A stretch of 64,000 bases of DNA from Promicromonospora sukumoe (lineage in GTDB: Bacteria > Actinomycetota > Actinomycetes > Actinomycetales > Cellulomonadaceae). The translations under genes were made by a program, and so were the position numbers. The notes under the pieces were generated by a model. The model ran no database searches and was not told the DNA's origin. It saw nothing but the letters and a program-made list of their open reading frames with translations. This document shows positions 20,906-58,413 of this stretch, piece after piece; position 1 is the stretch's first letter, and every line of letters begins with the position of its first letter. The stretch is from positions 1,302,001 to 1,366,000 of the forward strand of contig NZ_JACGWV010000002.1 in the NCBI RefSeq assembly GCF_014137995.1, written 5' to 3'.

Positions 20906-21625
20906 GTGACTGCCGCAAGCATCGCCAAGGATCTTCGTGCCGCGATCCGCTCCGGGACCTACAAACCGGGCGATCGCCTTCCGAGCGAGGCCGCGCTCAT
21001 GTCGAACTACGGCGTGGCCCGGATGACGGCGCGCCACGGCCTGTCGATGCTCAAGGACGAGGGTCTGACCGTGACCCGGCACGGCTCCGGCGTCTTCGTG
21101 CGCTCGTTCGAGCCGATCGTCCGCGACAGCACGGGCGGCAAGGCCGGCGAGTCCACGGTGACGGCGGAGATCGACGAGACCGGCGCCGGCCTCGTGGTCC
21201 GCACCCTCGCCGTGACGGCGGAGGCCGAGCCGTCCGAGAAGATCCGCACGACGCTCGGCCTCGCCGAGGGCGACAAGGTCACCGTGCGGGAGCGGCTGCA
21301 CCTGCGGGAGCGCAAGCCGGTCCTGTTCGCGACGTCGTACCTGCCCGCGGCGATCGCGGCCGGCACGCCGATCGCGGACCAGGAGGTCGGGCCGGGCGGC
21401 ACGCACGCGCGGCTGACCGAGGCCGGGCACGCGCCGGTGCGGTTCCGCGAGGACGTGGTGGGCCGCATGCCGACGATCGAGGAGATCGAGGAGCTGCGCA
21501 TCGAGCCCGGCACCCCGGTCCTCGCGGTCACGCGCACCGCCTTCACGAAGGACGGGTCGCCGGTCGAGGTGAGCCACGTGGTGCTGGACGCGGGCGAGTT
21601 CATGCTCCGCTACGACATCGACTGA
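20906..21625 (+). CDS. GntR/HutC-family transcriptional regulator with UTRA domain
   Basis: The 239 residues comprise an N-terminal winged helix (KPGDRLPSEAALMSNYGVAR), a linker, and a UTRA ligand domain with VRERLHLRERKPVLFATSYLP and LAVTRTAFTKDGSPVEVSHVV. UTRA domains sense small molecules such as sugar phosphates or amino-acid derivatives. GTG 20906 was chosen because GAGAGGG lies 5 nt upstream; GTG 20888 is in frame too. Its likely targets are itself and the divergent two-gene unit. Confidence 0.88.
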   Translation: MTAASIAKDLRAAIRSGTYKPGDRLPSEAALMSNYGVARMTARHGLSMLKDEGLTVTRHGSGVFVRSFEPIVRDSTGGKAGESTVTAEIDETGAGLVVRTLAVTAEAEPSEKIRTTLGLAEGDKVTVRERLHLRERKPVLFATSYLPAAIAAGTPIADQEVGPGGTHARLTEAGHAPVRFREDVVGRMPTIEEIEELRIEPGTPVLAVTRTAFTKDGSPVEVSHVVLDAGEFMLRYDID

Positions 21626-21716
21626 GCCGGAGGTGCAGCGCAGGGTGGGGGCCGAGGAACGAGGCACCCGCCCGAAGCGGAACCGCAGGCTCAGTCGACA
21701 GACAAGCAGAGCCTGA
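21623..21716 (+). repeat. Dispersed 93-nt stop-codon-linked repeat, copy 1
   Basis: It begins on the GntR stop codon (TGAGCCGGAGGTGCAGCGCA...). Homologous copies start on stop codons at 28085 and 58322. The ends pair as CTGAGCC with GGCTCAG, and an inner stem pairs GGTGC with GCACC. Confidence 0.85.
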
Positions 21717-21738
21717 GCATCGCTTCACAGGAGCCGCC

Positions 21739-22650
21739 TCACAGGAGCCGGAGCCTCCGCTCGGCCACGCCGATGCGGACCTCCTGCCCCCACGAGACCT
21801 CGAGCCGGTCCGCCTCCATGCCGTCGCCGAACACGACGAGCCGGTCCGACTGGACGGTGATCACGAGCTCGCCGTCGCTCCCGAGCACGCCCTCCGTCAT
21901 CGTGACGCCGGTGACGGGCGACGGCCACGCCTCCCGCACGAACCAGGCCAGCGCCGGGTCCGTGGGCCCGGGCAGCCGGCGCCCGCCCCGGTCGTGGGCG
22001 ATCGAGGCGCACCAGCCGGTGGCCCCGGTACCGGTGCTGACGATCAGGCCCGACGACGACTGGCGCTCCGAGCCGCGGCCGGACCCCAGCAGGTAGCGCG
22101 CCGACTGGTGGCTCGGGTGCCCCAGGAACAGCTCGTTGACGGCGTGCAGCTCCTGGCCGTCGTCGAGCCGGGCGTGGACCATCGTGAGCTCGTCGCCGCG
22201 CAGGGCCGAACCACGCCGGGCATCCCCCCGGCCCGGCTCGGCCAGCGCGCCGATGATCGCGCCGACGTCGTCGACGTCGTGCCGCACGAGCACCCCGAGG
22301 TTGGTGCCCGGTTCGGGGTCGACGCCGATCACGAGCTGCCGGTCCAGGTACTTGGCCACGTTCGCGACCAGGCCGTCCTGGCCCACGACGAGCACGACGT
22401 CCTCGGGCGCGAAGAGGAACCGGTCCAGGTCGGCCCGCTCCACCTCCGCGAGCGCCCAGTCGGACGGCACGCTCGCCGCGACCACCCGGCGGGCCGACGT
22501 CGCGGCGTCGTGCCGGGCCTCGACGTCGGCCAGGGTGCGGCCCCGGGTGCGCAGGAAGAACTCCGCCTGGCCGCGGGTGGCGTGCCGGTCGAGCAGCTCG
22601 TCGAGCTCGGTGCGGCGGTGCACGAGCACCGCGCGCGTGCGGAGCGCCAT
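21739..22650 (-). CDS. NAD-kinase-like protein
   Basis: The 303 residues share NAD-kinase landmarks: VLVVGQDGLVANVAKY in the place of the GGDGT loop (second Gly changed to Gln), HAVNELFLGHP for the NE motif, and SGLIVSTGTGATGW for the conserved substrate loop. The altered phosphate loop leaves true NAD kinase activity uncertain. It starts 1 nt after the SPFH gene stop. Both genes diverge from an NrtR-type regulator, which strengthens a link to nicotinamide nucleotides. Confidence 0.75.
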   Translation of the reverse strand: MALRTRAVLVHRRTELDELLDRHATRGQAEFFLRTRGRTLADVEARHDAATSARRVVAASVPSDWALAEVERADLDRFLFAPEDVVLVVGQDGLVANVAKYLDRQLVIGVDPEPGTNLGVLVRHDVDDVGAIIGALAEPGRGDARRGSALRGDELTMVHARLDDGQELHAVNELFLGHPSHQSARYLLGSGRGSERQSSSGLIVSTGTGATGWCASIAHDRGGRRLPGPTDPALAWFVREAWPSPVTGVTMTEGVLGSDGELVITVQSDRLVVFGDGMEADRLEVSWGQEVRIGVAERRLRLL

Positions 22651-22651
22651 G

Positions 22652-23707
22652 TCAGCGCTCCGTGGCCGGCGCGCCGTTCGAGGCCGGCGCGGTGTCCGCC
22701 GTCGGCTCGGCCGCCCGGGTCGTGAGCGCGCTCAGGAGCCCGCTCACCAGGTCGGGCGTGACGGTCAGGGAGCCCACGTTCGGCAGGTGCGGTGCGGCGT
22801 CGCGCAGGGCGAGCGCGGTGAGCACGTCGCGCCCGACGTTCGTGTAGACCGCCATGAGCGCGGCCTCCTTCGCGGCCTCGGCCTCACCGAGCCGGCGCAG
22901 CGAGCCCGCCTGGGCCGTGCTGGCGATCTCGCGCCGCTCGGCGTCGGACTTCGCCGAGACGAGGGCGGCCGCCGCGGCCTCCTCGGCCTCGCGGCGCTTG
23001 TTCGCACCCTCCTGGGCCACGAGCTGCTCGCGGCGGGCGGCGAGCTCGATCTGGCTCGCGAGCTCGTTCTCCGCGATCTTGCGTTCCCGCTCGACGGCGA
23101 CGGCGCGGCGCTCGTAGGTCGCGCGGTCAGCCTCGGCCTGGAGCCGTTCGCGGACGGGGGTGCGCAGGGCCTTCTCGACGTCGCCCTCAGGACGAACCGC
23201 GAGCACGCGGACGCCGAGGATCTCGATGCCCGTCGCGGCGAGGCGGGCGTCCTCGCCGAGCGCGCCGAGCGCCGTCCGCACGCGCCCGATGCCGGACTCC
23301 AGCGCCTCGGCGAGGTCCAGCGTGGCGATCAGGTCGACCGTGAGGCTCTGCGCGAGCTGCCCCACGATGGCGCCGACCTGCTGGCGGCCGCTCGCCTCCT
23401 GACCCTTGCCCGTGACGGGGAAGATGCCGAAGTCGAGGCGCTGGGACGCGAGGACCGGGTCGCCGAAGCGGTAGGTGACGTTCGACTGCACGCTGACGTC
23501 CTGCTGGTCGCGCGTGACGGCGTGGAACAGGACCGGCAGCTCCTGGTCGGTGGCGGGCACCTCGCTGAGCACCGAGGTGTCGGGCCGGAACCAGAAGGCC
23601 TGGCCCACGCCCTCGTGGCGGACGCCGCCCTTGCTGAGGTGCACCACGTAGTCGCTCGCGGTGCCGAGGAACTGGCGGAACCCGGGGTAGCGCTTGATCG
23701 TCGCCAT
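22652..23707 (-). CDS. SPFH/Band-7 domain protein
   Basis: The 351 residues have an N-terminal SPFH domain (FWFRPDTSVLSEVPATDQEL ... DVSVQSNVTYRF) and a long Ala/Glu/Arg coiled coil (about 195-270, ERRAVAVERERKIAENELAS). No N-terminal membrane helix is visible, unlike flotillins, so it may be a cytoplasmic oligomer. GGAG precedes ATG 23707. It is the first gene of the minus unit controlled from the NrtR operators. Confidence 0.85.
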   Translation of the reverse strand: MATIKRYPGFRQFLGTASDYVVHLSKGGVRHEGVGQAFWFRPDTSVLSEVPATDQELPVLFHAVTRDQQDVSVQSNVTYRFGDPVLASQRLDFGIFPVTGKGQEASGRQQVGAIVGQLAQSLTVDLIATLDLAEALESGIGRVRTALGALGEDARLAATGIEILGVRVLAVRPEGDVEKALRTPVRERLQAEADRATYERRAVAVERERKIAENELASQIELAARREQLVAQEGANKRREAEEAAAAALVSAKSDAERREIASTAQAGSLRRLGEAEAAKEAALMAVYTNVGRDVLTALALRDAAPHLPNVGSLTVTPDLVSGLLSALTTRAAEPTADTAPASNGAPATER

Positions 23708-23731
23708 CGTCTGACTCTCCTTCGATTGTTG

Positions 23732-23780
23732 TCGTCAGTTTGACGATATCTACCCTCCCGGCTTTTCGTCAAGGTGACGA
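23732..23780. promoter_or_regulatory. Two TCGTCAnnnTGACGA operators between SPFH and NrtR genes
   Basis: Perfect 15-bp palindromes with identical 6-bp arms lie at 23732-23746 (spacer GTT) and 23766-23780 (spacer AGG), 34 bp centre to centre. They occupy the 91-bp divergent intergenic region, so one regulator can control both directions. Confidence 0.8.
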
Positions 23781-23798
23781 GAATGTACGGTCGATGTC

Positions 23799-24569
23799 AT
23801 GGCCCGCACAGCACCCGTCCCGTCCGCGATACCCGACTCCGCGGGCGCCTTCCCCGTCACCGTCGACGTCGTGGCGCTGACGGTGCGGGAGGCCGCCCTG
23901 CACGTCCTCGTCGTCGACCGGCTCCTGGAGCCGTACCGCGGGCAGGCCGCGCTGCCGGGCGGGTTCGTGCTCGCGGGCGAGACGCTGGAGCAGGCGGCGG
24001 GGCGAGAGCTCGAGGAGGAGACGCGGCTGACGGTCCCGGCCGGGGCGACGGGAACGGGCCCCTGGCACCTGGAGCAGCTCCGCACCTACGGCCCGCTCGG
24101 GCGGGACCCGCGGGGCCCCGTGCTCTCGGTCGCCTACCTGCTGCTCGCGCCCGCCTTCGGGCTGCCGGCGGCAGGCGGCGACGCGGCCGAGGCCCGCTGG
24201 GTCCCGGTCGGGGGCCGGGGCGCCGGGCTCGCCTTCGACCACGACGGCATCCTGGCCGACGGCGTGGAGCGGGCCCGCGCCAAGATCGAGTACTCGCCGC
24301 TGGCGGCCGCGTTCTGCCCGCCCGAGTTCACGGTCGCCGAGCTGCGCGGCGTCTACGAGGCGGTGTGGGGCACGCGGCTGGACGCGCGCAACTTCCACCG
24401 GAAGGCCACGGGAACCCCGGGTTTCCTGGAGCCGACCGGGCGCCTGGGCGGCGGCGGCCCCGGCCGGCCGGCCGAGCTGTTCCGGCTGGCCCCCGGCGCC
24501 GACCCGACCGCGACCGTGCTGCACCCGCCGCTGCTGCGGCCGGCCGACGCCGGACCGGAGGCGGGCTGA
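23799..24569 (+). CDS. NrtR-family Nudix-winged-helix transcriptional regulator
   Basis: The 256 residues have a Nudix domain at 20-160 with box GGFVLAGETLEQAAGRELEE. A winged helix follows (FTVAELRGVYEAVWGTRL, then DARNFHRK), the canonical NrtR C-terminal signature. NrtR proteins sense ADP-ribose-type ligands with a Nudix domain that is usually catalytically dead; here the RE-x-x-EE residues are retained. The ATG at 23799 lies 18 bp from the second palindrome. Autoregulation and control of the SPFH/NAD-kinase-like unit are inferred. Confidence 0.85.
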   Translation: MARTAPVPSAIPDSAGAFPVTVDVVALTVREAALHVLVVDRLLEPYRGQAALPGGFVLAGETLEQAAGRELEEETRLTVPAGATGTGPWHLEQLRTYGPLGRDPRGPVLSVAYLLLAPAFGLPAAGGDAAEARWVPVGGRGAGLAFDHDGILADGVERARAKIEYSPLAAAFCPPEFTVAELRGVYEAVWGTRLDARNFHRKATGTPGFLEPTGRLGGGGPGRPAELFRLAPGADPTATVLHPPLLRPADAGPEAG

Positions 24570-24623
24570 CCGGCGTCGGGCCGGCCGGCCGAACCGGCGT
24601 CGGACCGGCCCGCCGGACCGGGG

Positions 24624-25664
24624 TCAGCCCTGACCCGGGCGCGTCCTCGGCTTGAGCCGCAGGTCCGGCAGCGCGGGTGCGCGCAGCGGCCCGGTCGGAT
24701 AGCCGTGCACCTGGCCGAACAGCCGCCCGGCGGCGCCGTCGGCGTAGCCGGTCACCCCGTCCGCGAGCTCGGCGATCTGGGCCGTCCAGGCGTCGCGGGC
24801 CCGCACGATGTCCTCGTGCGTGCGACCCATGAAGTTCCACCACATGACGACGTCCTCGTCGAACGGCAGGCCGCCGATCAGCACCGCCCGGACAGGAGCC
24901 GCGGCCCCGGCGCGCACCACGAGCGTCGACCGCCCCGGAGCCACGTAGCCGAGGTTCGACGGCGGCACGACGCTGCCCTCGAACGTCATGTCGCCGGAGT
25001 CGACGAGCAGGGCGTGCTCGTGCCCCGCGTCGACGTCGAGCCGCACCTCGGCGCCCGGCTCGAGGTCGATCTGCGCCCCGACGAGCGGCGTGTACGTCGT
25101 CGCGGGCGACGCCAGCTCCTCCCCCGCCACGGACAGCCGGCCGACGAACACCTGCACGACGGCGCCCTCGTGCCGGACGAGCGGCAGGCCGGCGTGGTGC
25201 TCGAAGTGCGGGTCGACGCCGAGCGCGGAGCCGGGCAGCGCCGTCCAGAGCTGCACGCCGTGCAGCCGGGGCGGGCGGCCCTCGGCGGGCGACTCCTCGG
25301 AGTGCGAGATGCCCATGCCCGCCGTCATCAGGTTGAGCTCGCCCGGCCGGACCCGCTGGAGCGAGCCCACCGAGTCGCGGTGCAGGATCTCGCCCTCGAA
25401 GAGCCAGCTCACGGTCTGCAGCCCGGTGTGCGGGTGCGGCGGCACCTGCATGCCCTCGCTGTCGGAGACGTCGTCGGGGCCGTAGTGGTCGCTGAAGCAC
25501 CAGGCGCCCACGAGCGACCGTGCGCGCTGCGGGATGGTGCGCCGCACGTCCATCGCCCGCGGCCCGCCGAGCGGCACGTCCCGCGGGGTGAGGAGCTCGA
25601 TGCCGTCGCCCTGGTCGCCCGCGGCGCAGACCTGCTCGGCCGGCTGGGTCTCGAGGTTGCTCAT
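24624..25664 (-). CDS. Pirin family protein
   Basis: The 346 residues include the iron site pattern PPHPHTGLQTVSW and HSEESP (His, His, His, Glu), followed by a second cupin with RAVLIGGLPFDEDVVMWWN. Pirins are two-cupin proteins; bacterial members can have quercetinase activity or bind partner proteins. Length and motifs are complete. Confidence 0.9.
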   Translation of the reverse strand: MSNLETQPAEQVCAAGDQGDGIELLTPRDVPLGGPRAMDVRRTIPQRARSLVGAWCFSDHYGPDDVSDSEGMQVPPHPHTGLQTVSWLFEGEILHRDSVGSLQRVRPGELNLMTAGMGISHSEESPAEGRPPRLHGVQLWTALPGSALGVDPHFEHHAGLPLVRHEGAVVQVFVGRLSVAGEELASPATTYTPLVGAQIDLEPGAEVRLDVDAGHEHALLVDSGDMTFEGSVVPPSNLGYVAPGRSTLVVRAGAAAPVRAVLIGGLPFDEDVVMWWNFMGRTHEDIVRARDAWTAQIAELADGVTGYADGAAGRLFGQVHGYPTGPLRAPALPDLRLKPRTRPGQG

Positions 25665-25703
25665 GCGCCGAGCCTAGATGCCGCGCGCGGGCTCCGGGGA
25701 GGG

Positions 25704-25737
25704 GCCAGGGCCCCCGGGGCAGGCCGGGGGCCCTGGC
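25704..25737. terminator. 14-bp hairpin upstream of the pirin gene
   Basis: GCCAGGGCCCCCGG pairs perfectly with CCGGGGGCCCTGGC. It sits 40 bp upstream of the pirin start, so it may separate upstream transcripts from pirin or lie in its leader. Confidence 0.5.
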
Positions 25738-25894
25738 GAAACCGCATACCCGTGGCCCGCGCTCGGCGAGAACCAGGGGCGTCGTGTCGACGTCACGACT
25801 CCGTTGTGCCCGTCAGACCCGGGTCGCCAGGCCTGTTCTGCACGAACACCTCGAACGCGGGCGGTCTTCCGGCCCCGTACAGGCACCTGTGGCG

Positions 25895-26165
25895 TCATCC
25901 ACAGCCCGCACCGCGGTACGGGATGTCCTGTCGTTCTCCGGTCGACCCATGTGTCCGATGTCCAAGCCGGTCGGTACTGCTGCAGCGCACCGCATCTGCA
26001 CCCGGATCGTCGAACCATTGACACCGTTTCTATCCGCGTGTCGTACATGCGGCAACTGCTCCGCCGTTGTAATTTTCACCCTCTGGTTCTCAACAGTTCT
26101 GTCCACAGGAAAAGCCCCGGATTTCCCACACAACACACAGGGCTGTGGATCAAATCTGTGGATAA
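25895..26165. other. Non-coding 510-bp region with a DnaA-box cluster
   Basis: Within 26099-26165 lie CTGTCCACA (26099), TTTCCCACA (26122), TGTGGATCA (26144) and the perfect box TGTGGATAA (26157, complement TTATCCACA). TCATCCACA is at 25895. The surrounding stretch 26010-26165 is much richer in A+T than the rest of the window and has TTGACA at 26018. No gene is seen in 25665-26174. dnaA and dnaN are absent, so this is not oriC by context; DnaA titration or regulation is possible. Confidence 0.6.
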
Positions 26166-26174
26166 CTTGCCGGG

Positions 26175-27185: not shown

Positions 27186-27464
27186 GCGGGCACCTTACTG
27201 CCGGGCACTTTCGCCCATGATGCAGGCGTGTTACAGAGATGAAACACGCTCGTGACGAAGGACTCGCGGTTTTCCGCGCTTCGCGCGAGGCGTATTACAC
27301 ATCCATATATTTGGCGACGGAGTCTCAGTGCAAAGACATGCATATTCCACCAGTGGCACCGCGCAAAGCCGATCTATACGAACTTAGCGCCACGTGTCCG
27401 ACGAATTCGCCGCGACGCCCTTCGCCACCCGATCCTGCGTTCCAGATACTGACGACGAGGGCAT

Positions 27465-27477
27465 ATGCTGTCAGCAT
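27465..27477. promoter_or_regulatory. ATGCTGTCAGCAT palindrome over the TetR start codon
   Basis: Perfect 6-bp arms surround one central T, and the block overlaps the ATG at 27476. It is a likely autoregulatory operator. The rest of 27186-27464 is A+T-richer intergenic DNA with no gene seen. Confidence 0.55.
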
Positions 27478-28087
27478 GCCCAAGATCATCGGCAAGAGCC
27501 TGCACGAGCACCGGCAGATGACCAGGCACAAGCTGTTCACCGCTCTGTCCACCCTCATGGCGGAGCGCGGGTTCGACACCATCACGCTGGCCGACATCGC
27601 CGCGGCGGCGAACGTCGGCCGGACCGCGGTCTACAACCACTTCCACGACAAGGAAGCACTGCTCCTCGGGTTCATCACGCACGAGACCGAGCAGTACGCC
27701 CACACGCTGGAGCGCGCGCTGGACGGCGTGGCCGACCCCGTGGAACAGCTGCGTACCTACATCCGCCAGCAGGCCCAGCTCACCCGTGTCTTCCACCTCG
27801 CCCCCGGCCCGGACCTGCGCACCGTCCTGTCCCGCGCCACGCTGCAGCGCCTGCGCGAGCACGCCGACATCGTCGAGGCGATCCTGCGCCGCATCCTGAC
27901 GGCGGGGATCGACGCGGGGACCTTCCCGCCCCAGGACATCGAGCCGACCGTGCACCTGGTCAACGCCTGCCTGTCGGGCCGGCTCATCCCGGACGAGCCG
28001 GTCGCCCGCGAGCGGACCATCCGTGCGGCGGAGGCCTTCGTGCTGCGCGCGGTGGGGGCCCGGGTTCCGGAGCGGGTGCCCGCCTGA
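27476..28087 (+). CDS. TetR-family transcriptional regulator
   Basis: The 203 residues have the N-terminal HTH FDTITLADIAAAANVGRTAV followed by YNHFHDKEALLLG, the TetR signature. The C-terminal ligand domain is helical. The MFS exporter gene follows 140 bp downstream on the same strand, separated only by a dispersed repeat, so a repressor-exporter pair is likely. Confidence 0.9.
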   Translation: MPKIIGKSLHEHRQMTRHKLFTALSTLMAERGFDTITLADIAAAANVGRTAVYNHFHDKEALLLGFITHETEQYAHTLERALDGVADPVEQLRTYIRQQAQLTRVFHLAPGPDLRTVLSRATLQRLREHADIVEAILRRILTAGIDAGTFPPQDIEPTVHLVNACLSGRLIPDEPVARERTIRAAEAFVLRAVGARVPERVPA

Positions 28088-28178
28088 GCCGGAGGTGCAG
28101 CGCAGGGTGGGGGCCGAGGAACGAGGCACCCGCCCGGAGCGGAGCCGCAGGCTCGGGCGGCAGACGAGCAGAGCTTAG
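28085..28178 (+). repeat. Dispersed 93-nt stop-codon-linked repeat, copy 2
   Basis: It starts on the TetR stop codon and is nearly identical to copy 1 for 70 nt. The closing stem is CTGAGCC with GGCTCGG, so one A is replaced by G (T-A to T-G wobble). Confidence 0.85.
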
Positions 28179-28226
28179 GTAAGCGGGCCGGCAGGCGGTA
28201 ACCCGCCTGGCGGTAGCCTCTAGCGC

Positions 28227-29567: not shown

Positions 29568-29582
29568 CGGCGACGCGTCAGA

Positions 29583-33859: not shown

Positions 33860-34345
33860 ATGGCCGAGGCCCTGAACGTCGGATCGCCCGTCGCGGGACG
33901 GGTGGTCGCGATGCGCGACGTGCCGGACCCCGTCTTCGCGGAGAGCATCGTCGGCCCGGGTCTCGCGGTCGAGCCGGACGCCGAGACCGGCGGGCGCGTC
34001 GTCGCGCCGTGCGCCGGCGTCGTGGTCAAGCTGCACCCGCACGCCTTCGTCCTGCTGGCGCCGTCCGGGGGCGCCGAGCCCGCCGGGGGCCGGGGCGTTC
34101 TCGTGCACCTCGGCATCGACACCGTCCAGCTCAAGGGCGAGGGCTTCACGCTGCTCGTCGAGGAGGGCGAGACGGTCGTAGCCGGGCAGGAGCTCGTCGT
34201 CTGGTCGCCCCTCACGGTGGCCGACGGCGGCCGCTCGCCCCTGGTGCCGGTCGTCGCCCTGGACCTGGGCACCGACGGGCTGGACGAGCTGGTCCGCCCC
34301 GGCACCGTCGTCCGGGCGGGAGACCCCCTGTTCCGCCTGGCGTGA
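33860..34345 (+). CDS. crr: PTS glucose-type IIA component
   Basis: The 161 residues match the IIA-Glc fold: SPVAGRVV start, KLHPHAF (auxiliary His) and the phosphorylated H83 in VLVHLGIDTVQLKGEGF. As a free protein it accepts phosphate from HPr, passes it to IIB domains and can regulate other transporters. It is divergent from ptsI across 249 bp. Confidence 0.93.
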   Translation: MAEALNVGSPVAGRVVAMRDVPDPVFAESIVGPGLAVEPDAETGGRVVAPCAGVVVKLHPHAFVLLAPSGGAEPAGGRGVLVHLGIDTVQLKGEGFTLLVEEGETVVAGQELVVWSPLTVADGGRSPLVPVVALDLGTDGLDELVRPGTVVRAGDPLFRLA

Positions 34346-34347
34346 CC

Positions 34348-34427
34348 TGTCAGACCTCCCCGGACGTGTCAGACGTACAGGTCACCCGAGGGACCTGTAC
34401 GTCTGACACATCCGGGGGCGTCTGACA
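34348..34427. terminator. Nested TGTCAGAC hairpins behind crr
   Basis: The inner arms 34367-34383 and 34392-34408 are perfect (17 bp). The outer arms 34348-34364 and 34411-34427 pair with one or two mismatches. All four arms start or end in TGTCAGAC/GTCTGACA. This is one member of a four-copy dispersed hairpin family. Confidence 0.8.
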
Positions 34428-34583: not shown

Positions 34584-35516
34584 ATGACCGGATCACGAAA
34601 CTTCGAGCGGACCCCTGGCCTGGTGCAGCTCGCCCGCCGTCAGCATGCCGTGGTCACCCGCGGGCAGCTCGCCGGGCTCGGAATCAGTGCCCGGCACGTC
34701 AGCCACCAGCTCGCGGCCCTGCGCTGGCGTGCGGTGACCAGCGACGTCGTCGTCCTGCACAACGGGCCCCTGCCGCGGGACGCCGAGCTGTGGGTGGCGG
34801 TCCTGGACGTCGAGCCGCCGGTGGCCCTCGGCTCGTGGACCGGACTGCACAGGCACGGGCTTCGGGGCTGGGACCGGGACGGCGTCCACATCGTCGTGCC
34901 GCGGGGTGCGAAGACCCGACGGCTGCCCGGCGTCGTCGTGCACGAGTCCCGACGGCCGGCTCCCGAGGACATCGTCCGGCTCGCTCGCCTGCCCGTGCAC
35001 ACCGTCCAGCGGTGCGCGATCGACGCCGCGGCCTGGCAGGACTCTCCGCGGACGGCCGTCGGGCTGCTGGCCGCCGTGGTCCAGCAGCGGATGGCGTCCC
35101 CGGAGCAGCTGTGGGACCAGCTCGAACGCGTGGGTAAGGTACGGTTCCGCGACCTCATGCGCCGGAGCGTCGCCGACATCCGGGGCGGATCCGACGCGCT
35201 GAGCGAGATCGACCTCGTCCGGCTGTGCCGCCGTCACGGGCTGCCCGAACCGAAGCAGCAGGAGAGACGGGTCGACTCCAGGGGAAGGACTCGCTTCCTG
35301 GACGCGGTGTGGATCCTGGACGACGGGCGACGACTCCTCGTCGAGATCGACGGCATCGGCCACATGGAGGTGGCCCGCTGGTACGACGACCTCCTGCGCG
35401 ATGCGGAGCTCACCACCGGCGACCGGGAGATCCGGCTCCGGCTGCCCGCGGCGGCGGCACGGACCGAACCCGACCGCGTCGTCGCGATCCTGAAGCGCCA
35501 CCTGGGCCCCCACTAG
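34584..35516 (+). CDS. AbiEi-type antitoxin-domain protein with DUF559 nuclease-like C-terminus
   Basis: The 310 residues begin with a winged helix (LARRQHAVVTRGQLAGLGIS) and the AbiEi_1 region (SWTGLHRHGLRGW, IVVPRGAKTRRLPGVVVHES). They end with a DUF559/Vsr-like fold (FLDAVWILDDGRRLLVEIDG), whose D...E-x-D pattern recalls PD-(D/E)XK nucleases. No AbiEii toxin gene is adjacent, so it is solitary. Such proteins are frequent in actinobacterial chromosomes with unknown function. Confidence 0.8.
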   Translation: MTGSRNFERTPGLVQLARRQHAVVTRGQLAGLGISARHVSHQLAALRWRAVTSDVVVLHNGPLPRDAELWVAVLDVEPPVALGSWTGLHRHGLRGWDRDGVHIVVPRGAKTRRLPGVVVHESRRPAPEDIVRLARLPVHTVQRCAIDAAAWQDSPRTAVGLLAAVVQQRMASPEQLWDQLERVGKVRFRDLMRRSVADIRGGSDALSEIDLVRLCRRHGLPEPKQQERRVDSRGRTRFLDAVWILDDGRRLLVEIDGIGHMEVARWYDDLLRDAELTTGDREIRLRLPAAAARTEPDRVVAILKRHLGPH

Positions 35517-35521
35517 GCAGT

Positions 35522-35563
35522 TGTCAGACCCACAGGTCACCCGGGTGACCTGTGGGTCTGACA
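35522..35563. terminator. TGTCAGAC palindrome (21 bp arms)
   Basis: It is a perfect palindrome at 35522-35542/35543-35563 between the AbiEi-like gene and the HAD gene. Ends are TGTCAGAC/GTCTGACA and the centre is AGGTCAC/GTGACCT. Confidence 0.8.
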
Positions 35564-35581
35564 CCGCCTAGGGTCGGGGCC

Positions 35582-36226: not shown

Positions 36227-36249
36227 GAGCTGTCAGACCCTCGCGGACC

Positions 36250-36291
36250 TGTCAGACGTATAGGTCACCCGAGGGACCTGTACGTCTGACA
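36250..36291. terminator. TGTCAGAC hairpin between convergent genes
   Basis: Arms 36250-36266 and 36275-36291 pair over 17 positions with one G-T wobble. The loop ACCCGAGG is identical to that of the crr hairpin. It serves both the HAD gene and the convergent NHL-thioredoxin gene. Confidence 0.8.
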
Positions 36292-36307
36292 CGTGGGGCG
36301 GGGCTGG

Positions 36308-38242: not shown

Positions 38243-38252
38243 CCGTCCATTG

Positions 38253-45352: not shown

Positions 45353-45523
45353 CGGCCACCTGACCCCCAGACATCGCCCGGGGCACGGCCGCCACGACCG
45401 GCTGCCGTGAATGTCGGGGCAGCGCGCCCGTCCGCACCACGGATCTCCCAGACCGGTCCGGGACAGGCGCGCTGCTCCAGCCGACCGACGTCTTGGATCG
45501 TTCCACATGGGCATCACAAAGAT

Positions 45524-45579
45524 GTAGACGTGTCAGACCCCCAGGTCACTCGGGTGACCTGGGGGTCTGACACGTCTAC
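45524..45579. terminator. 26-bp perfect TGTCAGAC hairpin between convergent genes
   Basis: Arms 45524-45549 and 45554-45579 are perfectly complementary with loop TCGG. The ends contain TGTCAGAC and the centre AGGTCAC. It lies immediately after the E2 stop and 170 bp after whiB7. Nothing else is seen in 45353-45523. Confidence 0.85.
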
Positions 45580-45583
45580 GGGA

Positions 45584-49453: not shown

Positions 49454-49594
49454 GGTCTGCCGCGATGTCCCCCAATCTCTCCGGGGACCGTTTGTCGAAA
49501 CCCACCAAGGGTGCGACCGGGTATCGGCGCCCAGGGCCGTGAGCGCTCCGCGCGGCGCCCGCGTCTCGCCGGGCCCCGAACCGATACTGGTCCG

Positions 49595-50605: not shown

Positions 50606-50654
50606 CCGGGCGCCGGGGCGGCGCGGGGCTGTGGTCGGCAGAACGTCAGACGGT

Positions 50655-50710
50655 CGGTAAAACGTCAGATGGTCGGCAGCTCGGAATGCCGATCGTCTGA
50701 CGTTCTACCG
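50655..50710. terminator. 24-bp imperfect hairpin between convergent genes
   Basis: The arm at 50655-50678 pairs with 50687-50710 with a few mismatches. The left arm is also partly duplicated upstream (AACGTCAGACGGTCGG at 50642). It ends both the esterase and the MFS transcripts. Confidence 0.7.
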
Positions 50711-50711
50711 A

Positions 50712-52226: not shown

Positions 52227-52252
52227 GCCCTCGACGGTGCGCCGCTCGCCAT

Positions 52253-52264
52253 CCTGGTACCAGG
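52253..52264. promoter_or_regulatory. CCTGGTACCAGG palindrome in the MFS/XRE divergent region
   Basis: A perfect 12-bp palindrome lies 27 bp upstream of the MFS start. A partial copy (ACCTGGTTG) lies near 52290 next to a TTGACA. It is a likely operator of the divergent regulator. Confidence 0.6.
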
Positions 52265-52328
52265 AGCCTGTCCATACGGGTATTGACACCACCTGGTTGC
52301 CCACGCCCCGCGGGGTGACACTGGTCGG

Positions 52329-53228
52329 GTGACGAGTACCGCACCGGACCACAAGGCGCTCGGCGCCTTCCTACGGGAGCGCCGCGGGCGTGTGACGCCG
52401 GCCGACGTCGGGCTGCCGCACGCCGGCCGGCGCCGGACCCCTGGTCTGCGCCGCGAGGAGGTGGCGCAGCTCGCCGGGGTGGGTGTCACCTGGTACACGT
52501 GGCTCGAGCAGGGGCGGGCGCCCCACCCGTCGGACCAGGTGCTCGACGCCGTCGCGCGGACGCTGCGCCTGCGTCCCGAGGAGCGCCGGCACCTCATGCT
52601 CCTGGCCGGCCGAGCGGCCGACCCCGGGGCTGACGCGCCGAACCCGCTGATGGAGGTGCGCCCCGAGCACATCGCCCTGCTGGAGCGGCTGCTGCCCTTC
52701 CCCGCCGCGATCCAGACCGCGACGTACGACCTGGTCGCGGCCAACCGCAGCTACCGGTTCCTGTTCGGCGACCTCGACTCGGTGGATCCCGTCGACCGGA
52801 ACTGCGCCTGGCTCCTGTTCATGAACGACGAGTGGCGCGACAGCCTCGTGGAGCCCGAGGTGGTGCTCCGTGACCTCGCCGGACGCCTCCGCGCGCGGGA
52901 GGCCGAGTTCCGGCAGCACCCGAGGTGGAGCGGACTGCTGGGCGGCCTGCGCGAGCACTCGCCGGAGTTCGTGCGGTACTGGGACGAGCACGAGGTGCGG
53001 GGCGACCGGCCCGGACAACTGCGTCGCTACCTGTCCTCCCGGGTGGGCAGGCTCGATACCGTCTTCCAGGGTCTGTGGCTCGACCGCGACCGGGGTGAGC
53101 GGATGGTCGTGCTCACTCCCGCCGACGCCGACTCGGCCCGCCGGCTCGAGCGCCTCGACTCCCTGGTGGGCGCCGCGCCCGCCTGGACGGCACGGGACGG
53201 CGTGCTGGCGGACGCGATGATCGGCTGA
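52329..53228 (+). CDS. XRE-family regulator with MmyB-like ligand domain
   Basis: The 299 residues have an N-terminal HTH (RRTPGLRREEVAQLAGVGVT, then WYTWLEQGR), and a C-terminal MmyB_LBD with NRSYRFLFGDL and YWDEHEVRGD. This class is very common in actinobacteria and usually represses a divergent enzyme or transporter gene. Start GTG 52329. Confidence 0.9.
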   Translation: MTSTAPDHKALGAFLRERRGRVTPADVGLPHAGRRRTPGLRREEVAQLAGVGVTWYTWLEQGRAPHPSDQVLDAVARTLRLRPEERRHLMLLAGRAADPGADAPNPLMEVRPEHIALLERLLPFPAAIQTATYDLVAANRSYRFLFGDLDSVDPVDRNCAWLLFMNDEWRDSLVEPEVVLRDLAGRLRAREAEFRQHPRWSGLLGGLREHSPEFVRYWDEHEVRGDRPGQLRRYLSSRVGRLDTVFQGLWLDRDRGERMVVLTPADADSARRLERLDSLVGAAPAWTARDGVLADAMIG

Positions 53229-53241
53229 GCCGGGCGGCGCC

Positions 53242-53277
53242 GTCCGTCGGGGACCGTCCGTCGGGGACCGTCCGTCA
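53242..53277 (+). repeat. 14-bp tandem repeat between convergent genes
   Basis: GTCCGTCGGGGACC occurs twice in tandem plus a partial third copy that includes the aminotransferase stop codon. GGACGGTCCCC-type pairing could form a hairpin. Confidence 0.6.
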
Positions 53278-54363
53278 GCGCCAGGTGGCCGCTATGCGGA
53301 GGAACGCGTCGTTGGCCTCGGTCTCGCCGATGGTCACGCGGAGCCCGTCGCCCGCGAAGGGACGGACCAGGACGCCGCCGCCGCTCGCCTCGGCGGCACG
53401 CTGCGCCGTCGGCTCGCCGAGCCCGAACCAGACGAAGTTGGCCTGCGTGTCGGGAAGCGCCCAGCCCTGCTCGCGCAGCGCCCCGGTGACCCGGGTGCGC
53501 TCGGTGATCAGCGCGTCCACGCGCTCCAGCAGCTCGCCCTGCGCGGCGGGCGCCAGCGACGCCAGCGCCGCGACCTGCGCGATGTGCGAGACGCCGAACG
53601 GCGTGGACACCGCTCGGATGCCCGCGGCCAGCCGGGGCTCCGCGACCGCGTAGCCGACCCGCAGGCCCGCCAGCCCGTAGGCCTTGGACAGGGTGCGCAG
53701 CAGCACCACGTTCGGGTGCCGGCGCAGCAGGTCGACGCCGTCGGCCACGCGGGGGTCGCGGACGAACTCCAGGTAGGCCTCGTCCACGACGACGAGCACG
53801 TCCCGGGGCACCGCGGCGAGGAACGTCTCCAGCTCGTCGGCGTGCACGGCGGGGCCGGTCGGGTTGTTCGGCGTGCAGACCAGGACCACGCGGGTGGCGG
53901 GCGTGACGGCCGCGGCCATCGCGGGGAGGTCGAGCCGGCCCGTGCCCTCCTGGACCGGGACGGTGACGGCCTTGCCGCCCGCGACGGCGACCGCGATCGG
54001 GTACGCCTCGAAGGAGCGCCACGGGAAGACGACCTCGTCACCGTGCTCGACGACGGCCTGCAGCACGTGCGCGAGCACCGCGACCGAGCCGTTGCCGACG
54101 ACGACGTTCTCCGCGACCACGCCGGTGTGGGCCGCGAGCGCCTCGACGAGCTCGCCGGCATACATGTCCGGGTACCGGTTGACCTCGGTCGCGCCCCGCG
54201 CGATCGCCTCCAGCACGGACGGCAGCGGCGGGTAGGGGTTCTCGTTGGACGAGAGCTTCCACACCTGGGCACCGGCGCCGGCGCGCGCTCCGGGGACGTA
54301 GGCGGGGAGGGCCGACACGGCGGCGCGGAGCGGTACGAATGCTTCTTCCACGAGGGTCAGCAT
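53275..54363 (-). CDS. hisC: Histidinol-phosphate / aromatic amino acid aminotransferase
   Basis: The 362 residues are a fold-type I PLP enzyme with KLSSNENPYPP, TPNNPTGP, VVVDEAYLEF and the PLP lysine in RTLSKAYGLAGLRVGY. It may transfer amino groups to histidinol phosphate or, as a Pat-type, to phenylpyruvate; no his operon is nearby, so the second is quite possible. The annotated start is only 14 bp from the start of the divergent holin-like gene, so promoters must lie inside coding DNA or the start is later. Confidence 0.85.
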   Translation of the reverse strand: MLTLVEEAFVPLRAAVSALPAYVPGARAGAGAQVWKLSSNENPYPPLPSVLEAIARGATEVNRYPDMYAGELVEALAAHTGVVAENVVVGNGSVAVLAHVLQAVVEHGDEVVFPWRSFEAYPIAVAVAGGKAVTVPVQEGTGRLDLPAMAAAVTPATRVVLVCTPNNPTGPAVHADELETFLAAVPRDVLVVVDEAYLEFVRDPRVADGVDLLRRHPNVVLLRTLSKAYGLAGLRVGYAVAEPRLAAGIRAVSTPFGVSHIAQVAALASLAPAAQGELLERVDALITERTRVTGALREQGWALPDTQANFVWFGLGEPTAQRAAEASGGGVLVRPFAGDGLRVTIGETEANDAFLRIAATWR

Positions 54364-54377
54364 GCCACGATGACCGG

Positions 54378-54785
54378 ATGAAGCTCGTCGCGCAGATCCT
54401 CATCACCGCACTGGCCATCGCGCTGTCGTCCCTGATCCTCGGGTCCCACATGGATGTCGTGAGCAACGGGACCACGCTCGGCACGATCCTCGCCGTCATC
54501 GTGGTCGCCGTGGTCTACGGACTCGTCCACATGATCGTGAAGCCGATCGTCCAGCTCATCTCGCTGCCGCTCTACATCCTGACCCTCGGTCTGGTGTCGG
54601 TGCTCATCAACGCGCTGATGCTGTGGATCACGACGCTCATCACGAACCAGTCCTGGTTCTCCGACACCCCGAACTGGGGCCTGGAGATCAACGGCGGCTT
54701 CTGGTGGTTCGTGCTGGCGGCGATCGTGATCTCCGTGGTGCAGACCATCCTGCTGGCGGTGCTGCCCAAGCGGATCTCGGAGTGA
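54378..54785 (+). CDS. Phage-holin-family four-helix membrane protein
   Basis: The 135 residues have four hydrophobic segments (about 4-22, 36-58, 60-84, 107-129). IVKPIVQLISLPLYILTLGL is the signature of the chromosomal mycobacterial-type phage holin family IV (YvlD-like). No phage genes surround it, so it is a housekeeping membrane protein. It ends 35 bp before the convergent lipase-like gene. Confidence 0.8.
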   Translation: MKLVAQILITALAIALSSLILGSHMDVVSNGTTLGTILAVIVVAVVYGLVHMIVKPIVQLISLPLYILTLGLVSVLINALMLWITTLITNQSWFSDTPNWGLEINGGFWWFVLAAIVISVVQTILLAVLPKRISE

Positions 54786-54819
54786 GCCGGGGCTGACCCG
54801 GGTCACGGCCTGATCCGGG

Positions 54820-56325
54820 TCACGTGCCCGCGCGTTCGGCCCGGTAGAACACGGTGCTCACCTCCGGGCCGGTCAGCCGGGCGCCGATCCGGTCGGCCGC
54901 GCCAACCACCCGGGGGTCGCCCGAGGCGAGGGCCAGGTCGAGCGTGCGGACGTGCGTGGCGACCGCGTGCGCCTGCGGCAGGCTGCCCGACGCCGCCCGG
55001 TCGCCCACAGCGACCGAGTCCCGCAGCGACCGGACCACGGTGACGCGGTCGCGTGTGCGCGGGTTCTCCGCGGCGGACCGGCCGTCGGTGTTCGAGACGA
55101 GCTCCTCCGGCGTCTCCAGGTGCAGCACCGGGACGCCGGGCGGCGTGTTCAGCAGGCCCGTCGGCGCGCCGGCTGTGACCAGCCCGCCGACCCGGTACCG
55201 CTCGGTGAAACCCGCCCGCGAGACGAGCGCGGCGGCGGCGATCCCGCCGAGGCTGTGCCCCACGAGGGTCACGGGCTCGTCGGGTCCGACGCCGGAGTCC
55301 GCCAGCGCGTCCTCGATCGCCGCCGTGGCGCCGTCGGCCTGGCCCGCGACCAGCTCGAGGTCGGTCCGGCCGTCCCAGGGGTGGTCCGCGGGCAGGGCGG
55401 ACTGGGTGCCCGGGACCAGCACCGTCCAGGACACCCCGCCGTCGGCGCCCGTGACCCGCTGGACGGCGATCGTGGCCGCGGGGGCGCCGCCCGTGCCCGG
55501 GTAGAGGTCGTCGACCCGGGCCAGCGCCTCCTGCACCGACCCGGCCCCGCTCGTGGACCACGCCGGGACCGCGCCGTGGGCGAAGTCCCCGGGGCCGAGC
55601 CGGGCCAGCCGGACGCCGGCGTCGTCGTTGCCGAGCAGAGGCGTCTCGCGGGCCACGTGCGCGAGCACACCGGCGGCGCCCTCCACGCCCGGTCTGCCCC
55701 CGGCGAGGCCGGGCCGGGCCAGCGCGACGCCGCCGCCCAGGCCGGTGACCGCCTCGTCCGAGTACGGGGACAGGCCGCGCGTGAGACCGGACCCGAGCCG
55801 GCCGGTGAGTGCCGACGGGAGGCCCCCGGCGAGCCCGCTGCCGACCAGACGCGCGCCCACCTCCGCACCACCCACGACGCCGATCCCCGCCAGTCCTGCC
55901 CAGCCCAGGACGCCGAACGCCGCCCCGGTGCCGAACGCCCACGCCGTGACGAGCCCGCCGACCAGGCGTTCCGCCGTCGACTCGGCCTCCTCGTACAGGC
56001 CGGCCGCGCGGAGCAGCCGCCAGCCGAGCAGGTCGCAGAGGTCGGCCCGGTCGGTGAGGTGTCGGGCGGCGTCCAGGGCGAGGGTCTGCGGGGCGAGCGC
56101 TGCTCCCGCGGGGCCGAGCGGCTCCCACGGCCCGGCCGCACCGCCCGGGACGACCGCGAGGTCACGGCTCACCCCGAGGCAGCACAGCGCGGCCGCCCGC
56201 AGGTCGTCCGCCGCGCGGGCCAGCAGTGCGGCGGCACGCCGCACGGACGCCGTCTCGACGGCCGACGCGCCCTTCCCGCCGTAGACCGTGACCGTGTCCT
56301 CGGGCCGCCAGGGTCCCCCGCTCAC
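54820..56325 (-). CDS. Alpha/beta-hydrolase (lipase-like) with N-terminal helical WXG-like domain
   Basis: The 501 residues begin with a helical Ala/Leu/Arg-rich region (about 18-100) like the ESX/LXG type, then Gly-rich hydrophobic stretches (about 130-165). The lipase domain has nucleophile LVGHSLGGIAAAAL and His near the end (PQAHAVATHVRTL). GTG 56325 overlaps the previous stop (GTGA). The arrangement of a small helical partner plus a large enzyme resembles type VII-secreted substrates, but no ESX motor genes are in the window. Confidence 0.7.
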   Translation of the reverse strand: MSGGPWRPEDTVTVYGGKGASAVETASVRRAAALLARAADDLRAAALCCLGVSRDLAVVPGGAAGPWEPLGPAGAALAPQTLALDAARHLTDRADLCDLLGWRLLRAAGLYEEAESTAERLVGGLVTAWAFGTGAAFGVLGWAGLAGIGVVGGAEVGARLVGSGLAGGLPSALTGRLGSGLTRGLSPYSDEAVTGLGGGVALARPGLAGGRPGVEGAAGVLAHVARETPLLGNDDAGVRLARLGPGDFAHGAVPAWSTSGAGSVQEALARVDDLYPGTGGAPAATIAVQRVTGADGGVSWTVLVPGTQSALPADHPWDGRTDLELVAGQADGATAAIEDALADSGVGPDEPVTLVGHSLGGIAAAALVSRAGFTERYRVGGLVTAGAPTGLLNTPPGVPVLHLETPEELVSNTDGRSAAENPRTRDRVTVVRSLRDSVAVGDRAASGSLPQAHAVATHVRTLDLALASGDPRVVGAADRIGARLTGPEVSTVFYRAERAGT

Positions 56326-56558
56326 CGCACCCACCCGCCGTACGCGAGCCGTAGGGCCCCCTCCAGCACGGCCCGGTCCTGGACCAGAGCACGCGCCACG
56401 TCGCCGACCGCCACCCGGTACAGCTCCGCCGCACGGGCACACCACTCGACCTCGGCCGCGGCCCGTACCCCCACCACCGCCCCGTCCACCAGGTCCGCGG
56501 CCCGCAGGAGCGCGGGCACGGCGCTCTCCGGGACGGGGAAGCACGACGGGCCGCTCAT
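56322..56558 (-). CDS. Small helical WXG100-like partner protein (78 aa)
   Basis: It is an all-helical protein (VPALLRAADLVDGAVVGVRA ... AAELYRVAVGDVARALVQDR) ending LAYGGWVR. Length and heptad-like pattern resemble WXG100/ESX-type chaperone partners, although W-x-G appears only as GGW near the end. It is coupled to the lipase-like gene by GTGA. Confidence 0.6.
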   Translation of the reverse strand: MSGPSCFPVPESAVPALLRAADLVDGAVVGVRAAAEVEWCARAAELYRVAVGDVARALVQDRAVLEGALRLAYGGWVR

Positions 56559-56827
56559 GGCCGGTCTCTGTTCATCGGCGCTCGCACTCCCTGGGTCGAC
56601 CGGTCACGTGTCCCGATGACGTTACGCAGGGCCTGTGGTCCGGCGTCGGGCCGCCAGGGGCGTCTGTGCACGGACGGCCCGAACGGCCACCTGTGGTCGG
56701 GCTCGCTCCCGCGGGACGCCGTCGGGAGGGTCTCTCCCGACCGGTGTGCCGATCGGTCGCACAGCATCACGCCATGCCTGTGGACAACGAGGCGGCCCGA
56801 AGACGGGCCCGTGGGAGAATGGAGCAC

Positions 56828-58324
56828 GTGCCTGAGACCACCGCCCCTGCTGCCAGCCCTGCCGACTCCGCCGGCGCCGTCACCCGCGTCGCGCTCGCGG
56901 AGGTGAGCCCGGCCATCGCGCTCGGCCCGCTCGACGGCCGGTACCGCAAGGCCGTCGCGCCGCTCGTGGACCACCTGAGCGAGGCCGCACTGAACCGCGA
57001 GCGCATCCACGTCGAGGTGGAGTGGCTCATCACGCTGTGCAACGGTGCGGAGGGCGTCGAGGCGCCGGTCGTGCCGGGGGCTCCGACGCTGTCGCAGCAG
57101 GAGGTCGACTACCTCCGCGCGATCCCCGCGACGTTCGGCGCGGACGAGATCGCCGAGCTGGCCGAGATCGAGCGCGAGACGGTGCACGATGTCAAGGCCG
57201 TCGAGTACTTCATCAAGCGGCGCATCGCCGCGGCGCCCGAGACGCTCGGCGAGACGAGCCTCCCCGCCGCCAGCGAGCTGGTGCACTTCGCCTGCACCAG
57301 CGAGGACATCAACAACCTGTCGTACGCCCTGATGGTGCGGGGCGCGGTGCGGGACGTCTGGCTGCCGGCCGCGACCGCCGTCGTCGACCAGCTCGCCGGC
57401 ATGGCACGCGAGCACGCCGCCGCGCCCCTGCTCAGCCGCACGCACGGCCAGCCCGCGACGCCGTCGACCCTGGGCAAGGAGCTCGCCGTGCTGGCGCACC
57501 GCCTGCGACGTCAGCTCCGGCGCGTCGAGGGGGCCGAGTTCCTGGGCAAGCTGAACGGCGCCACCGGCACCTACGGTGCCCACGTCGTCGCCGTCCCGAC
57601 GGCGGACTGGCCCGCGGTGTCGAAGGCGTTCGTCGAGGGTCTCGGCCTGGACTGGAACCCGCTGACCACGCAGATCGAGTCGCACGACTGGCAGGCCGAG
57701 GTCTACTCCGACGTCGCCCGCTTCAACCGCATCCTGCACAACCTGGCGACGGACGTGTGGACGTACATCTCGCTCGGGTTCTTCACGCAGATCCCGGTCG
57801 CGGGCGCCACGGGCTCGTCCACGATGCCGCACAAGGTGAACCCGATCCGGTTCGAGAACGCCGAGGCCAACCTCGAGATCTCGTGCTCGCTCCTGGACAC
57901 CCTCTCGGCGACGCTCGTGACCAGCCGCCTGCAGCGCGACCTCACCGACTCGACGACGCAGCGCAACATCGGGCCGGCGTTCGGGCACAGCCTGCTCGCG
58001 ATCGACAACGTGGCGCGCGGCCTGGACCGACTCGCCGTGAACGAGACGCTGCTGCGCGAGGACCTCGACGCAAACTGGGAGGTGCTGGGCGAGCCCGTCC
58101 AGTCCGCGATGCGCGCGGCGTCGGTCGCGGGCGTGCCCGGCATGGAGAACCCGTACGAGCGTCTCAAGGACCTCACGCGCGGCCAGCGCGTGGACGGCGC
58201 GCGCATGCGCGAGTTCGTCGCGGGCCTCGGCCTGCCGGACGACGTCGCCGCCCGCCTCGCCGCCCTGACCCCGGCGACGTACACGGGGCTGGCGGAGCAG
58301 CTGGTCAAGGACTACCTGGACTGA
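56828..58324 (+). CDS. purB: Adenylosuccinate lyase
   Basis: The 498 residues include LGPLDGRYRK, SRTHGQPATPSTLGKELAV and the fumarase/aspartase signature GSSTMPHKVNPIRFENAE with the catalytic Ser in the flexible loop. It catalyses two steps of purine synthesis: SAICAR to AICAR and adenylosuccinate to AMP. The length (with an Ala-rich N-terminus) fits the E. coli-like branch. GTG 56828 was chosen; ATG 56819 is 3 codons upstream. Confidence 0.95.
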   Translation: MPETTAPAASPADSAGAVTRVALAEVSPAIALGPLDGRYRKAVAPLVDHLSEAALNRERIHVEVEWLITLCNGAEGVEAPVVPGAPTLSQQEVDYLRAIPATFGADEIAELAEIERETVHDVKAVEYFIKRRIAAAPETLGETSLPAASELVHFACTSEDINNLSYALMVRGAVRDVWLPAATAVVDQLAGMAREHAAAPLLSRTHGQPATPSTLGKELAVLAHRLRRQLRRVEGAEFLGKLNGATGTYGAHVVAVPTADWPAVSKAFVEGLGLDWNPLTTQIESHDWQAEVYSDVARFNRILHNLATDVWTYISLGFFTQIPVAGATGSSTMPHKVNPIRFENAEANLEISCSLLDTLSATLVTSRLQRDLTDSTTQRNIGPAFGHSLLAIDNVARGLDRLAVNETLLREDLDANWEVLGEPVQSAMRAASVAGVPGMENPYERLKDLTRGQRVDGARMREFVAGLGLPDDVAARLAALTPATYTGLAEQLVKDYLD

Positions 58325-58413
58325 GGCGGAGGTGCAGCGCAGGTGGGGGCCGAGGAACGAGGCACTCGCCCGGAGCGGAACCGCAGCCTCAGGCCACATA
58401 GGTAGAGCCTGAA
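58322..58413 (+). repeat. Dispersed 93-nt stop-codon-linked repeat, copy 3
   Basis: It starts on the purB stop codon. Compared with copy 1 the closing stem changes from CTGAGCC/GGCTCAG to CTGAGGC/GCCTCAG, a compensatory C-G to G-C swap. One G is missing in the GGGTGGGG run. Confidence 0.85.

Follow-up and report, generated by a model that had tools for sequence, protein, structure and literature searches.

The window analysed here, a stretch of 64,000 nucleotides (nt) from the genome of Promicromonospora sukumoe, carries three copies of a dispersed repeat of about 90 nt that begins on the stop codon of a protein gene and folds into a long hairpin, one arm of which mirrors the last five nucleotides of the gene that bears it. 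That this repeat is a mobile element that targets stop codons we regard as very probable. A fuller account, to which we give roughly an even chance, is that of a non-autonomous mobile hairpin, carried by soil actinobacteria, that acquires its arm as a copy of target sequence upon insertion or shortly afterwards; that the arm matches the gene hints that target sequence is copied as the element inserts. Read from 5' to 3', the anatomy that we propose would comprise the last five coding nucleotides of the host gene (X5), TGA GCC, an imperfect hairpin with the loop GAGGAACGA, GGC TCA, the arm that answers X5 (X'5), a variable linker and, usually, a second stop codon.

Stop-codon targeting and mobility

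A preliminary description of this DNA had placed three copies on the stop codons of unrelated genes, and each copy does begin on the TGA of a different gene (Table 1). The length of 93 nt that it gave did not hold exactly, the unit measuring about 90 nt (88-92 in most copies). The genome-wide search that it had suggested returned 21 BLAST matches in this genome to copy 1 and its flanks (copy 1 itself counted), more than expected by chance. Altogether, 281 matches lie in 18 of 39 related genomes, this one counted, and these include all 13 of the genus, among which G006 has 38 matches and G007 a single weak one (E 7e-4). Tandem arrays account for 68 of the 215 groups in the loci analysed. From 155 full copies, 20 were dropped (arm not placeable), which left 104 first copies and 31 later copies.

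How tightly is the element bound to stop codons? Of the 124 first copies that have 300 nt or more of upstream sequence, 117 start exactly where an upstream coding frame (at least 50 codons, with a GC content at third positions, GC3, of at least 0.85) ends, against 378 of 4775 random TGAs from the same loci; the other two reading frames pass the same test in 0 and 12 of the 124. Two of the seven failures are later tandem copies (L112, L021), one follows a short ribosomal-protein-like gene (L041) and one falls narrowly below the GC3 limit (L283). The remaining three (L098, L050, L269) are without plain cause, and by eye L098 seems to follow a remnant copy. The element starts with TGA in 121 of the 124, and with TGG in a single orthologous set of three (L260, L270, L284), in which the pairing partner is compensated to CCA. 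The preliminary description had named copies that lie off stop codons and lack compensatory changes as the finding that would tell against it; with seven failures in 124 and a compensated TGG set, the tie to stop codons stands. By eye, the host frame of the TGG set reads through ten codons of the element before it meets a fresh TGA, created by a GCC to GCT change in the core.

The preferred target, as read from the 104 first copies, is TCGNC|TGA. A G at -3 is present in 96% of them, compared to 49% of native TGA ends; the corresponding figures are 78% and 41% for C at -4, and 54% and 19% for T at -5. Of the 116 cases in which the next gene could be placed, 76 have it in the same direction as the host gene and 40 have it convergent, compared to 404 and 316 in the background, and an operon is therefore not needed.

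The presence or absence of the element at orthologous sites in sister species, another check raised by the preliminary description, bears directly on mobility, and the element is indeed absent from orthologous ends at gntR, purB and other genes. The gntR orthologs of two sisters (L198, L199) end in ATCGAC-TGA and lack the element, and L347 likewise has the X5 TCGAC without it. The purB gene ends in CTGGAC-TGA, again without the element, in six other genomes of the genus (L227, L230, L232, L234, L169, L236); in genome G004 it bears the element plus a truncated second copy, and in G009 a deletion remnant with a different gene end, CTCGAC, and a different and matching arm. At one site, compared between L262 (genome G012) and L295 (G004), the empty locus has a single TGATG stop/start overlap, and the filled locus has a TGA at both ends of the insert. 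Of 30 ortholog ends inspected (16 of the 17 sites of this genome, two further genomes), 18 are by eye without trace and the other 12 hold the element or a remnant, two of them doubtfully (L336, L360). A crude string test labels 23 of the 30 as empty, and several of the seeming empties are internal deletions that retain the outer stem (L296, L301, L316, L233). Together with the stop-codon association and the variation in tandem number, the sister comparisons lend good support to the earlier suggestion of a mobile mini-element at TGA stops.

By eye, about half of the 18 trace-free ends have the same X5 as the filled site; at the others it differs, as at L038, with TGGTG here and TGGTC in both sisters. 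At many sites, then, X5 is present in orthologs that lack the element. We rejected the idea, suggested by the locus pairs L258/L297 and L279/L314, that the element overwrites the last five nucleotides of the gene, because divergence at -1 to -5 in the 23 ends flagged as empty (.13,.09,.17,.13 and 0) is not above that further upstream.

Hairpin structure and the matched arm

The correspondence between arm and gene was measured on 101 of 125 copies, after later copies, close orthologs and TGG copies were dropped. X'5 is the reverse complement of X5 at all five positions in 70 of these 101 independent copies, where shuffled pairings give a mean of 7.7 and a maximum of 18, and none of 5000 shuffles reaches the observed match. 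From -1 to -5 the Watson-Crick match is.98,.83,.98,.94 and.86 (shuffled pairs.77,.30,.94,.68 and.39), and at -6 it drops to background (.31, compared to.32 shuffled). The set is diverse, with 36 different X5 sequences and 35 different arms.

The right end of the element carries a related signal. In the copies from Antribacter (20) and Isoptericola (15), the nucleotides ahead of the second stop directly repeat X5: the match exceeds that of shuffles at -1, -2 and -5 and lies close to background from -6 onward, except for an isolated excess at -10 in Antribacter. In the other 50 copies, from Promicromonospora and elsewhere (a class that includes unassigned loci), the right end is mostly a fixed AGAGCC, with a weak excess at -2 and -4. 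A second stop usually follows the variable linker at the 3' end of the element; to fix the right end, the earliest stop codon 3' of the arm was used, and for many Promicromonospora copies that stop is a TAG within the linker.

RNAalifold, applied to 105 equal-length copies (of the 125), returns one long hairpin. The outer stem, X5-TGAGCC/GGCTCA-X'5, is followed by two short inner helices and then by an upper stem with the consensus GGGTGnGGGCC/GGCACn'CGCCC around the loop GAGGAACGA; this replaces the inner GGTGC/GCACC stem of the preliminary description, which was in the wrong register. One U.G pair of the upper stem is almost invariant (102 of 105 copies). The closing-stem swaps reported earlier are real, with TGAGCC/GGCTCA in copy 1, a T.G wobble (GGCTCG) in copy 2 and TGAGGC/GCCTCA in copy 3. 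Covariation is real as well: in 42 diverse copies, 96.1% of cells are paired and 15 of 25 pairs show two-sided changes, which none of 500 shuffles equals, and sliding the pairing partners abolishes the signal. These figures are biased upward, three of the 45 diversity-chosen copies (L071, L022, L108) having been excluded for lost or mismatched arms, and the structure itself was derived from overlapping sequences. The preliminary description had missed, however, that the outer stem covaries with the last codons of the host gene, a pattern not easily accounted for by simple selection for structure at 3' ends.

The two edges of the element behave differently, the 5' edge being fixed and the 3' edge ragged. 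Beyond the second TGA, the element's own start resumes for at least 5 nt in 72 of 102 copies, compared to 99 of 550 native TGA ends, and the resumed stretches vary in length up to complete second copies. Most partial copies have an intact 5' end and are truncated on the 3' side, each at a different point, as in the last array copies of L256, L270, L285, L286, L131 and L112 and the single copies L045 and L046. Among 33 left-only and 14 right-only pieces in the loci analysed, none of the left halves has a free right half within 6 kb, as a long version with cargo in the loop would show. A mini-open reading frame (ORF) between the two stops (GTG GGG GCC GAG and onward) is open by eye in copies 1 and 2; we rejected it, since the frame is not conserved. 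Unit lengths fall 40, 34 and 20 into the three classes modulo 3 (94 of 104 copies, some anchored on the linker TAG), such that frame is not kept.

Proposed insertion mechanism and its alternatives

In the mechanism that we propose, insertion would occur at the stop codons of protein genes, preferably at TCGNC|TGA, and would leave the host gene whole. The 3' end of the folded element would pair on the TGAGCC beside the target and most likely be elongated by copying five nucleotides of the target, either as the element inserts or as the insertion is repaired, so that X'5 is specified by the target. A presumed trans-acting enzyme would recognise the hairpin and the stop-codon target. We favour an arm specified by the target because matched arms differ between near-identical cores, because X5 is native, and because the arms of later tandem copies fit the gene. 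More tentatively, and with clearly less than an even chance, the insertion reaction itself may write five target nucleotides, no more and no fewer, into the element as their reverse complement, the last codons of the host gene and its stop then forming one strand of the terminal stem; the machinery would be neither a reverse transcriptase nor any known Y1 transposase.

If this were true, an arm written from the target would be a categorically new way of making the end of a mobile element, and insertion events could be read straight from sequence; we know of no other system with a target-written end. Landing on stop codons shows how a repeat can persist harmlessly in a dense genome, and the conserved hairpin and loop offer a handle for seeking the responsible enzyme.

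Several observations weigh against a target-copied arm. Mismatches, one to three in the five arm positions, occur in 31 of the 101 copies; they are commonest at -2, where A faces G in 11 of 18. Among 398 close-core pairs, the arm followed X in 0 of 29 cases at -3. In six Antribacter and Isoptericola copies (L089, L111, L138, L136, L081, L066), the left and right X5 agree with each other and not with the arm, and L286, whose X5 GAGCC is the same as in its ortholog L275, retains the unmatched arm GGCGA. Some arm matching arises after insertion: L260 and L270, 97% identical upstream and 98% in the core, differ at -1 (G/C) and have arms with C/G, and the copies on rplK in L053 and L378 (see below) differ in their gene ends, each with a matching arm. 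Finally, searches for Y1 and reverse transcriptase domains have found no enzyme.

What else could fit an arm to its gene? The rivals rank in the order inherited guide, later correction or selection, and RNA function. An inherited guide, in which single-stranded DNA or RNA pairs TCA-X'5 with X5-TGA and inserts only where these match, would account for the arm-target pairing, the consensus TCGNC|TGA and the tolerance of mismatches mainly at -2 and -5; guide-directed choice of cleavage site is described for IS200/IS605 in the available text of PMC8266576. We nonetheless consider it unlikely. The arm is nearly independent of element ancestry and hardly inherited: identical arms occur in 13.6% of pairs with identical cores (22 pairs) and in 6.6% of pairs below 85% core identity. 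In the close-core pairs, where X differs the arm differs too in 59 of 69 cases at -1, 221 of 276 at -2, 53 of 83 at -4 and 172 of 212 at -5. Even with near-identical core and linker, in non-orthologous genes, the arm differs along with X in 24 of 31 pairs at -2 (19 matched on both sides) and in 17 of 22 at -5; all of these pair and arm-identity counts reuse sequences. Nor was a Y1 domain found in the 13 genomes of the genus. A guide is only weakened by these results, because the core may be constrained while arms drift. A somewhat smaller chance goes to a later adjustment of the inserted arm, whether through quasipalindrome (hairpin-templated) mutation or through selection that favours a perfect outer stem. 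The L260/L270 and rplK cases speak for it, as do the change of TGA/TCA to TGG/CCA in the set that includes L260 and L270, and L063 and L017, which differ at -2 in step with their arms. However, the match stops sharply after five nucleotides, and the base opposite T1 of the TGA, within the same stem, remains an uncorrected G in 20 of the 101 copies. Moreover, copies that have no trace in two sisters are mostly matched already, with 5/5 at gntR, L033, L030 and copy 2 (copy 2 as judged against one sister). In tandem arrays, 20 of 46 later copies have a flank unlike the X5 of the gene, and, of the 47 positions at which the two can be told apart, their arms agree with the gene at 38 and with their own flank at 6. 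Continuous local correction is thus not seen there, and arrays seem to have grown from a first copy with a gene-set arm.

A regulatory or terminator RNA selected at gene 3' ends, as the preliminary description had entertained, is on sequence grounds improbable, even though the hairpin covaries, is strand-specific, lies directly after stops and keeps its U.G pair. Wobble is rare in the outer five pairs (G.U in 3 of 41 non-Watson-Crick cells), 18 of the 30 ortholog ends lack any trace, and internal deletions are common; the idea of a 3' untranslated regulatory RNA finds no support in the sequence data. The purB gene, in addition, has an inverted repeat of its own just 3' of the element (58424-58491; 31 nt, 94% complementary), probably the native purB terminator, and by eye a similar one lies 3' of purB in the sister L231, where the element is absent. 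Searches of Rfam gave only a tRNA at the gathering threshold for the window and, for copy 1, only two microRNA-family matches (E 0.75 and 0.96), taken as chance. Least probable is that the element is a retroelement, or a palindrome of REP type or of IS200/IS605 descent that a Y1 transposase moves. The imperfect hairpin, whose foot pairs next to the insertion site, would suit this, but the Y1 domain PF01797 is found in 0 of 13 genus genomes and 1 of 39 overall (outside the family), and the reverse transcriptase domain PF00078 in 0 of 13 and 3 of 39; neither is present in any of the 18 genomes with element matches, although an enzyme too diverged for these domain models is possible.

Related elements, window copies and wider distribution

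Miniature inverted-repeat transposable elements (MITEs) are small, non-coding and dispersed, with terminal inverted repeats. The present element resembles them in being small, non-coding, dispersed and absent at orthologous sites in relatives. It differs in that, of the two complementary outer strands, the target supplies one and the element the other, with no fixed terminal repeats; no parent transposon was seen in the loci analysed. With regard to a target site duplication the ends point both ways: at L262/L295 a TGA stands on either side of the insert and in Antribacter and Isoptericola X5 is repeated directly at the right end, but in the other copies that end is mostly the fixed AGAGCC.

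By target and habit, the closest known system is that of the mycobacterial interspersed repetitive units (MIRUs), which, in the description given by the available text of PMC12548453, insert at start codons and contain an ORF that is coupled, at -4, to the following gene. The likeness, drawn from description, is that both are short, dispersed and tandem in actinobacteria, apparently mobile and situated at a stop-codon junction, and one of the empty sites here (L262/L295) is a TGATG stop/start overlap. Unlike MIRUs, the present element has no kept frame or coupled ORF, its next gene is convergent in 40 of 116 cases, and its hairpin has a gene-specific arm. By pairing, the closest are the repetitive extragenic palindromic (REP) sequences, with REPINs, and the ends of IS200/IS605 elements, whose imperfect hairpins have a guide-like foot complementary to the cleavage site (PMC8266576, in the part available) and so recall the foot complementary to the insertion site here. 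The differences are that no Y1 transposase was found in the genus, a longer unit, and a matched foot on the 3' side that differs from gene to gene, in place of a fixed tetranucleotide tag such as the GTAG of REP sequences. A literature search with thin coverage of subscription papers found no recognised paper on such an element.

Within the window, copies 1 and 2 are 93% identical. Copy 3 is 62% identical in the ungapped register, because one core base is absent, and 86-91% identical to copy 1 in gapped BLAST matches.

Table 1. Positions in the window of the three element copies, their matched ends and the genes that bear them
Feature	Position	Strand	Remarks
GntR-like gene, bears copy 1	20879..21625	+	name read from translation
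X5 of copy 1, TCGAC	21618..21622	+	final five coding nt of the GntR-like gene
Copy 1 of the element	21623..21713	+	from TGA of the GntR-like gene to the last base ahead of the second stop
3' arm of copy 1, GTCGA	21694..21698	+	reverse complement of X5, 5/5
Second stop TGA, 3' end of copy 1	21714..21716	+	
TetR-like ORF, bears copy 2	27239..28087	+	name read from translation; true start probably more internal
X5 of copy 2, CCGCC	28080..28084	+	
Copy 2 of the element	28085..28175	+	begins on TGA of the TetR-like gene
3' arm of copy 2, GGCGG	28156..28160	+	5/5 match to X5
ORF holding purB, bears copy 3	56288..58324	+	name read from translation; true start more internal
X5 of copy 3, TGGAC	58317..58321	+	
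Copy 3 of the element	58322..58409	+	begins on purB TGA; core one base shorter
3' arm of copy 3, GGCCA	58392..58396	+	4/5 match, mismatch at -2

A pattern scan of public genomes found at least 120 stretches among the matches listed, nearly all in Promicromonospora, Antribacter, Isoptericola, Myceligenerans, Cellulosimicrobium, Xylanimicrobium and Xylanimonas. One match in Trinickia (L069) lacks the element ends around it and was taken as chance. In plasmids and phages, the 93-nt query gave no match at 1e-5 and a 50-nt piece only short weak ones; viral contigs gave 0 matches to the core pattern.

A covariance model reaches further, with matches in 18 of 297 genomes sampled from the order. Six copies from one genus (g34), read by eye, have arms that match four nucleotides and are then followed by GA. 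At L386, in another family (f13), the TGA of a glutamine-synthetase-like gene is followed by a hairpin that has the same loop and eight matched nucleotides. A genome of a further family (f17) has one element that starts at a coding-frame stop (L398) and one that, by eye, starts at an ATGA overlap with the next start (L384). Two copies in another family lie on the apparent rplK stops of L053 (TAA, nine arm nucleotides matched) and L378 (TAG, six matched); L053 comes from Arthrobacter sp. ISL-30, in whose genome it is the only copy found. That the same or near-identical loops stand at stops in other actinobacterial families, with six to nine nucleotides matched, hints at a system that is old and more widespread. 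The L053 element lies ahead of an apparent rplA. Both L384 and L398 consist of 87-nt tandem units with the GAGGAACGA loop, and by eye the L384 unit continues in frame into the next gene.

Other palindromes accompany the element. A second dispersed family consists of near-perfect palindromes of about 50 nt (GTGTCAGACG..GGTCACC..CGTCTGACAC); in the window they lie at 34344-34418, 35499-35573, 36227-36301 and 45508-45582, and the same palindrome is present downstream of the hairpin element in L040 and L043. A further palindrome, AAGTTTCTTCGCTTT..AAAGCGAAGAAACTT, is found at L276, with dozens of matches in genome G009, and also near L030 and L031.

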